Of a stretch of 38,973 nt of DNA, positions 20,682-24,681 are shown piece after piece. The stretch is from Pseudomonadota bacterium (GTDB lineage Bacteria > Pseudomonadota > Gammaproteobacteria > JAKAQQ01). The stretch spans positions 1 through 38,973 of the forward strand of contig JAKATI010000007.1 in NCBI GenBank assembly GCA_021828045.1. Reading direction: 5' to 3'. Positions within the stretch are counted from its first letter, which is position 1, and each line of letters starts with the position of its first letter. A program made the position numbers and the translations under genes. The notes beneath the pieces were generated by a model. The model saw nothing but the letters and a program-made list of their open reading frames with translations, was not told where the DNA came from and ran no database searches.

Positions 20682-21626
20682 TTGACGGACACAGAGAGCC
20701 GCATGACCACGGAAAAAATGAAACGAAGCCGACGACGCACGGGGAAGGGAGGGGATAGTGGCGGTTCGGGGGATTTTCCCTTCGGCAGCCGTTCCTCTGT
20801 TGTGGTTTTGGGACAGCCGAGGACTTGGCTACGGGATTTTTACTACTGGCTGCTGACCACCCGCTGGAGCTGGTTTCTCCTGTTTGTCTTCGGTGTCTAC
20901 ATTCTGGTCAATTGTGTGTTCGGCCTCTTGTTCTGGCTGGATCCGGGCGGGATCGCGAATCTCGCTCGGGGCTCGTTCTGGGATGCGTTTTTTTTCAGCA
21001 CCGAGACGCTCACGACCCTGGGTTCGGGTTTCTGGTATCCGGCCGACCGCTATAGCGAAGTCCTGACGGCTCTCGAACCCATGATGGGTCTCATGGGCCT
21101 CGCGCTCGTGACGGGTGTGATGTTTGCCCGGGTTTCGCGACCCTCTTCCCGGATCCGCTTCAGTCGCCATGCGCTCATTACACCATTTCAAGGGACCCCG
21201 ACTTTGGTGTTCCGTCTGGCCAACAGTCGCCATAATCTCATCACAGGAGGGACCCTGGGTGTTTATCTCATTCGTTCTGAAAAAAGCCGAGAAGGACGGG
21301 CACTCCGCCGCATCCACGAACTGCCGCTGGTGAGGTCGCAGACACCGCTGTTTGCTCTCACCTGGCTTGTCATGCACGAGATTCGCCCGGGCAGCCCACT
21401 GGCTGCTTTCATCGATCCGGACTCGTTCCCTCCCGGGGATGACGATACCTTTATCCTGGTCAACTTTACCGGGCATGACCGGACCTACGGCCAGGCGGTC
21501 CATGCCCAGCATCTCTACCGGATGGGCGACCTGCGCTGGAACCGCTGGTTTGCCGACGTCACGGAGCGGCGGGCCGACGGACGTTGGCAGATTGATTACG
21601 AGCGTTTCGACGAACTCGTCGACTGA
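20682..21626 (+). CDS. Inward-rectifier (KirBac)-like ion channel with non-canonical filter
   Basis: Two TM segments around FFFSTETLTTLGSGFWYPADRYSEVL, LVTGVMFARVSRPSSRIRFSRHALITPFQG (Kir gate/linker), IRK-like cytoplasmic domain (LVFRLANSRHNLI...; LTWLVMHEIRPGSPL; ILVNFTGHDRTYGQAVHAQHLY). Confidence 0.88.
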   Translation: MTDTESRMTTEKMKRSRRRTGKGGDSGGSGDFPFGSRSSVVVLGQPRTWLRDFYYWLLTTRWSWFLLFVFGVYILVNCVFGLLFWLDPGGIANLARGSFWDAFFFSTETLTTLGSGFWYPADRYSEVLTALEPMMGLMGLALVTGVMFARVSRPSSRIRFSRHALITPFQGTPTLVFRLANSRHNLITGGTLGVYLIRSEKSREGRALRRIHELPLVRSQTPLFALTWLVMHEIRPGSPLAAFIDPDSFPPGDDDTFILVNFTGHDRTYGQAVHAQHLYRMGDLRWNRWFADVTERRADGRWQIDYERFDELVD

Positions 21627-21645: not shown

Positions 21646-21678
21646 GGAACACCGGTCGACCCAGTCGGGTCGACCAGG

Positions 21679-21757
21679 CAAGCCGGGGGTGCCCTGGGTG
21701 GGCTGAGAAAGACCCTTGGAACCTGATCCGGGCAAAACCGGCGGAGGGAAGGCTTGC
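21679..21757 (+). ncRNA. TPP riboswitch (THI element)
   Basis: GGGGGTGCCC...GGCTGAGAAAGACCCTTGGAACCTGATCCGGGCAAAACCGGCGGAGGGAAGGCTTGC; P1 GCAAGCC/GGCTTGC; upstream of thiC. Confidence 0.97.
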
Positions 21758-21802
21758 GGGCATGGGCCCGGGCGTGATCCTCGCTCCGCTTCCTGGAGGT
21801 GA

Positions 21803-23908: not shown

Positions 23909-24681
23909 ATGATTCTCTCGGCTCGTGATCTCGGTTTCAGCCCGGAGGCGGAGTTTCGCGACCGGACTCAAATGCAGTTCATCGCTCTCCTCATGCGGCA
24001 GGGGGCCAGCCGCCTCATCCTCTAAGGCGGGATGGCCATTCGGGTGCTCTACGCAAGCATGCGTCTCGCCTAAGGATGTAGATTTCGACTGTGAAGACAA
24101 CGTCTCACAGCAGTCCATGCAGACTCACATGAACAAGGCACTCTCGCAGGCGGCCCGACTTGTGGGCCTGAGAGGGGTGGAGGTCACCCAGACGAAACGG
24201 GTCGAGCGCTCCGCCCGGTGGCGGATCAAAGCCGTTTGAAACACCGATTGCATACCGTATTCCGCCGTTCAATGTCCGCGTATACGGATCGGCCGCAATG
24301 GCGGGCGGCAAGGTAAACGCGTTACTGAGCGAGAATCGGAGTGTTCCGCGTGATGTGTACGACCTGGCGGAATTGACACGGCACGGTGCGGATCCGACGG
24401 AACTTTGGATTCGCCGCATTCCACGACAGGTCCTCGAGTGGAAACGGCCGGTCGTCCTGCGCAAGATCGAGATCATCGATTTTGCTAGGGCTGCCGCGGA
24501 GCTGCTGCCCTACATCGCCCCAGAGATACGGCAGTCCCTAGACGAGGCCCGCTGGGATGAGATGCGCCTCGACGTTGCACATCATGTGGAGGGGTGGATG
24601 GACTCCGCTGTCGCACGCGCCGAGGACTCTGGTGAGGAGGATTATGTCCAGACCACCGACAGCGATCTTGCTGGGCGCTGA
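23909..24681 (+). pseudogene. AbiEii-like nucleotidyltransferase toxin, decayed
   Basis: Reconstructed across frames: MILSARDLGFSPEAEFRDRTQMQFIALLMRQGASRLIL*GGMAIRVLYASMRLA / KDVDFDCEDNV...VERSARWRIKAV / FETPIAYRIPPFNVRVYGSAAMAGGKVNALLSENRSVPRDVYDLAEL...; one in-frame stop and two frame changes. Confidence 0.82.

Follow-up and report, generated by a model that had tools for sequence, protein, structure and literature searches.

The Kir gene studied here lies on the plus strand of a 38,973-nucleotide window (the whole stretch of DNA that was analysed), between a divergent pcm-tolC pair and a thiC gene with a TPP riboswitch. Its reading frame is open from a TTG at 20682, ends at 21626 on the plus strand and reads FFSTETLTTLGSGFWYPADRY; the ATG at 20703 is the likely start codon. 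The features of the locus are as follows.

20703..21626, plus strand: KirBac-type channel gene, 307 aa; orthologues of the genus align from near its ATG
20865..20936, plus strand: TM1, residues 55-78, from a helix of the AlphaFold2 model and the Pfam IRK match
20973..21014, plus strand: pore helix, SFWDAFFFSTETLT region, residues 91-104, from alignment to KirBac1.1/3.1 and to the orthologues
21015..21029, plus strand: selectivity filter TLGSG (T105-L-G-S108-G); the codon of Ser108, a residue that is Tyr or Phe in K+ channels, is TCG at 21024-21026
21048..21134, plus strand: TM2, residues 116-144, from a helix of the AlphaFold2 model
21153..21623, plus strand: Kir cytoplasmic domain (IRK_C, PF17655), beta-rich and confidently modelled
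21675-21767, plus strand: TPP riboswitch (Rfam RF00059, 63 bits), between the Kir gene and thiC

By homology, the window protein is a member of the prokaryotic Kir family. It has two transmembrane segments with a P-loop (Pfam IRK and the model helices), a C-terminal Kir cytoplasmic domain (IRK_C) and a likeness to KirBac1.1/3.1 in both sequence and fold, with TLGSG standing where a TxGYG (or GFG) filter is expected. Both Pfam matches lie above their curated cut-offs, IRK with an E value of 1e-6 and IRK_C with 3e-16 (protein 158-313, 157/174 positions), and the closest solved relatives are KirBac1.1 and KirBac3.1 (E about 1e-60), whose homology extends over the whole length. The assignment to the Kir family and the intact cytoplasmic domain, both put forward by the initial annotation, are thus borne out. 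The first PDB matches of the AlphaFold2 model in a Foldseek search were KirBac3.1 structures (E 7e-26); this model has a mean pLDDT of 70.8 and falls below 50 in the P-loop, and we set it aside as evidence on the filter and used the fold match alone. A NaK-type channel with two transmembrane segments, which is short, lacks a Kir domain and carries TVGDG, is ruled out by the Kir domain and by TLGSG. The same annotation had read a filter with Ser for Tyr in an interval that includes positions 21015-21029, and the codons ACC CTG GGT TCG GGT confirm it there; the alignment with KirBac1.1 and KirBac3.1 has no gap across the filter and places GSG opposite GYG.

Further downstream, a short ORF at 24298-24678 (plus strand) matches the C-terminal part of AbiEii, a type IV toxin-antitoxin nucleotidyltransferase, and is followed by a 214-aa ORF without Pfam match; the two perhaps form a truncated AbiE-like pair. 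As to other K+ transport, every one of the nine genomes of the window's order in the searched set has a PF07885 match, and in the three genomes of the window's genus a second PF07885 protein is a Kch-like channel with the filter TVGYGD, whose cytoplasmic tail resembles, by eye, a TrkA/RCK domain. Hence a selective K+ path has not been lost in the genus, and we rejected the idea that it had lost all of its K+-selective channels. KdpA was found in seven of the nine order genomes and TrkH in none of them (G000-G008). The name of a related isolate, DBS1-2, matches the 'DBS' mining area of an acid-mine-drainage sediment study (PMC12153355), and sample naming of this kind suggests that the genus may be acidophilic.

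The unusual filter belongs to a maintained gene. TLGSG is found in all three known species of this small uncultured proteobacterial genus, with the Ser codon being TCG in two of them and TCC in the third, and with synonymous differences among the filter codons (ACC/ACT, GGT/GGC, TCG/TCC, GGT/GGG). Between pairs of these species, dN/dS ranges from about 0.09 to 0.12 (dN 0.06-0.08, dS 0.61-0.79), and the window Kir gene is under purifying selection. Because the motif recurs in three species with synonymous codon variation and dN/dS is close to 0.1, a sequencing or assembly error, or a decaying pseudogene, is very unlikely.

Among the nine order genomes, a single Kir gene is present in each of the three from the window's genus and in each of three from a sister genus, six genomes in all; none was found in the order's third genus among these nine. 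The tolC-pcm-kir order is common to both genera, and the Kir genes are therefore orthologous; downstream of kir lies thiC in the window's genus, and on one contig of the sister genus it was found there too. Comparison with a paralogue was rejected on the basis of these common neighbours and of the single Kir gene in each Kir-bearing genome of the order. All three sister-genus orthologues have TIGYG, and all cyanobacterial outgroups have GYG. In a maximum-likelihood tree of 39 sequences, the TLGSG sequences are monophyletic (support 100/99) and nested with their TIGYG sisters in a clade supported at 100/100, and FastTree agrees on 142 sequences (0.998 and 1.0). As TLGSG is monophyletic beside TIGYG sisters and GYG outgroups, the Tyr-to-Ser change is, on this phylogenetic reconstruction, derived and fixed once on the stem of the genus. 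The suggestion that TLGSG might mark a clade has therefore held, with all three species of the genus grouped together in both trees. The P-loops of the two genera also show other fixed differences, among them two changes to Thr in the pore helix (one from Val, one from Ala) and a filter change of Ile to Leu. Altogether, fixed changes occupy 5 of 25 comparable columns in the P-loop, against 20/69 for the remaining membrane columns and 28/110 for those of the cytoplasmic domain; these counts show no P-loop excess and lead us to reject a divergence focused on the P-loop, and there is thus no obvious compensatory burst.

The filter Tyr is as a rule nearly invariant, and filters such as TLGSG are rare among the channels that we compared. 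We examined 149 distinct Kir filters, mostly from Pseudomonadota, Cyanobacteriota and Myxococcota, a set that is neither random nor a complete census, and among these 149 sequences only the TLGSG clade, one TVSFG and one TLGSEG lack GYG or GFG. Kir genes occur in 4 of 369 sampled genomes of the class. The TVSFG protein (first Gly to Ser, Tyr to Phe) is encoded by an ORF from 1375 on the plus strand of locus L048 (genome G320), from the same class and another family; no other Kir match was found in five further genomes of its genus. The TLGSEG filter, WYSAHTLSTLGSEGMAP, belongs to a Myxococcota Kir paralogue (L116 1-786, minus strand, G968:C44:57431-58216), in a genome that carries a second Kir, L158, with the filter TIGYG. 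This paralogue represents an independent loss of the filter Tyr. Relatives of the window Kir were not found in a search of viral contigs, and a plasmid search gave nothing closer than distant relatives below 60% identity, from Synechocystis and Caballeronia.

We propose that the window protein is a functional Kir channel, a tetrameric cation pore with reduced or no discrimination between K+ and Na+ under ordinary control by the Kir domain, a model that we hold about as likely to be right as wrong. With slightly less assurance, just short of an even chance, we suggest that this natural Kir lineage descends from a K+ channel that became a cation channel of no selectivity, or of a different one, when a single position of its otherwise canonical P-loop changed from Tyr to Ser. 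Both conduction by the window protein and its selectivity are matters that we infer. The leading Thr and both Gly are kept in TLGSG, and the inner half of the filter (carbonyls of Thr, Leu and the first Gly, sites S4-S3) would be kept as well. What would be lost is the aromatic ring by which the outer half is held firm against the adjacent subunit; sites S1-S2 might then be wider or more mobile, for which NaK (TVGDG) is the example. In K+ channels this Tyr side chain faces away from the pore, and in Kir2.1 it stacks on F143 and F103 of the neighbouring subunit (PMC9273215). F98, the Phe before the pore-helix Ser, is invariant in the orthologue alignment and corresponds to one of these partners, and the invariant F73 of TM1 corresponds to the second in a hand alignment; since both are kept, only the Tyr side of the stacking contact would be missing.

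We favour a weakly selective or non-selective pore because of the NaK and NirBac precedents. NaK, with Asp at the Tyr position, has only the S3/S4 sites and is non-selective, and once its TVGDGN is changed to TVGYGD, four sites are present again and the channel selects K+ (PMC9822992). NirBac1.1/1.2, with non-canonical filters, are tetrameric and conduct monovalent cations without selectivity; however, among precedents that keep the P-loop the nearest is NirBac2.1 (TTGTD), which was neither purified nor measured, and this counts against the non-selective reading (PMC4607889). The selective K+ path that the genus retains in its Kch-like channel speaks for this reading, whereas the unremarkable number of fixed P-loop changes, the low-confidence P-loop of the model and the behaviour of GLG filters, TbIRK and the Kir2.1 mutants described below speak against it. 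Thus, NaK and NirBac lend plausibility to the altered or lost K+ selectivity predicted by the initial annotation, but the motif alone does not imply it.

It is possible, and on balance rather unlikely, that the channel is still K+-selective, with backbone-carbonyl sites and other residues stabilizing the filter, and that the change altered gating, conductance or filter stability. Heginbotham et al. in 1994 reportedly found in Shaker that an aromatic residue at the filter Tyr position is not essential for selectivity, which would support such a channel. K+-selective filters include GFG and, in K2P channels, GLG, and some filter variation is tolerated (PMC3283738); a Kir2.1 signature-sequence study cited there announces in its title an effect of mutations on gating 'but not ionic selectivity'. 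Moreover, TbIRK, without TxGYG, prefers K+ over Na+ by a factor above 7 (PMC5429665). However, Ser is much smaller than Phe or Leu, and NaK, in which the Tyr is likewise replaced by a small polar residue, shows no selectivity (PMC9822992). In Kir2.1, Phe is tolerated at the filter Tyr position, and the other mutants reach the surface with strongly reduced function (PMC9273215), which also argues against retained K+ selectivity. The same mutational scan shows that surface expression and function are separable at this Tyr (PMC9273215), and the Kir2.1 Y145C (GCG) homotetramer carries no current yet is at the membrane (PMC5634867). Both observations are consistent with a non-conducting pore in a Kir-domain protein that serves as a sensor or has a structural role; we consider this improbable, since a dead pore should drift, whereas conservation in TM1, the pore helix, both Gly and TM2 is no lower than elsewhere in the protein. 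A preference of the pore for some other particular cation, be it Na+, a divalent metal ion or H+, is very improbable: at least one relative would, going by sample naming, come from acid-mine drainage, rich in metal ions and protons, but the filter contains neither an acidic residue nor a known Na+/Ca2+ filter motif.

Kir channels with non-canonical filters were already described in 2015 (NirBac, PMC4607889), and much of the novelty is thereby lost. The value of the present case lies in a natural Y/S pair in an otherwise canonical P-loop, split between sister genera. Residues for K+ selectivity are usually probed through laboratory mutants, which are often non-conducting; here, a GSG Kir is kept by purifying selection. 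This sister pair bears on whether Kir channels work without the filter aromatic and on what permits it, and if a single Tyr-to-Ser change did alter selectivity, the TIGYG sister lineage and the convergent TLGSEG paralogue of Myxococcota would serve as controls.

Among known systems, KirBac1.1 and KirBac3.1 (TC 1.A.2) share with the window protein homology over the whole length and the architecture of two transmembrane segments, P-loop and Kir cytoplasmic domain, and differ by their TVGYG/TIGYG filter. NirBac1.1, 1.2 and 2.1 (Zubcevic et al. 2015, PMC4607889) likewise combine the Kir architecture with a non-TxGYG filter. The P-loops of NirBac1.x have no homology to those of KirBac, whereas the window P-loop is otherwise canonical with both Gly kept; in NirBac2.1 (TTGTD) the rest of the P-loop is kept, as in the window protein. 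Because its closest relatives have TIGYG, the filter change in the window probably arose independently of NirBac, as judged from trees built without the named NirBac sequences. NaK (TVGDG) also has a small polar residue for Tyr and keeps both Gly, but it lacks the Kir cytoplasmic domain and has Asp where the window protein has Ser. Finally, TbIRK of Trypanosoma brucei (PMC5429665) is likewise Kir-like without TxGYG, but its filter is GGYVG, and measurements on this channel gave a selectivity for K+ over Na+ above 7.
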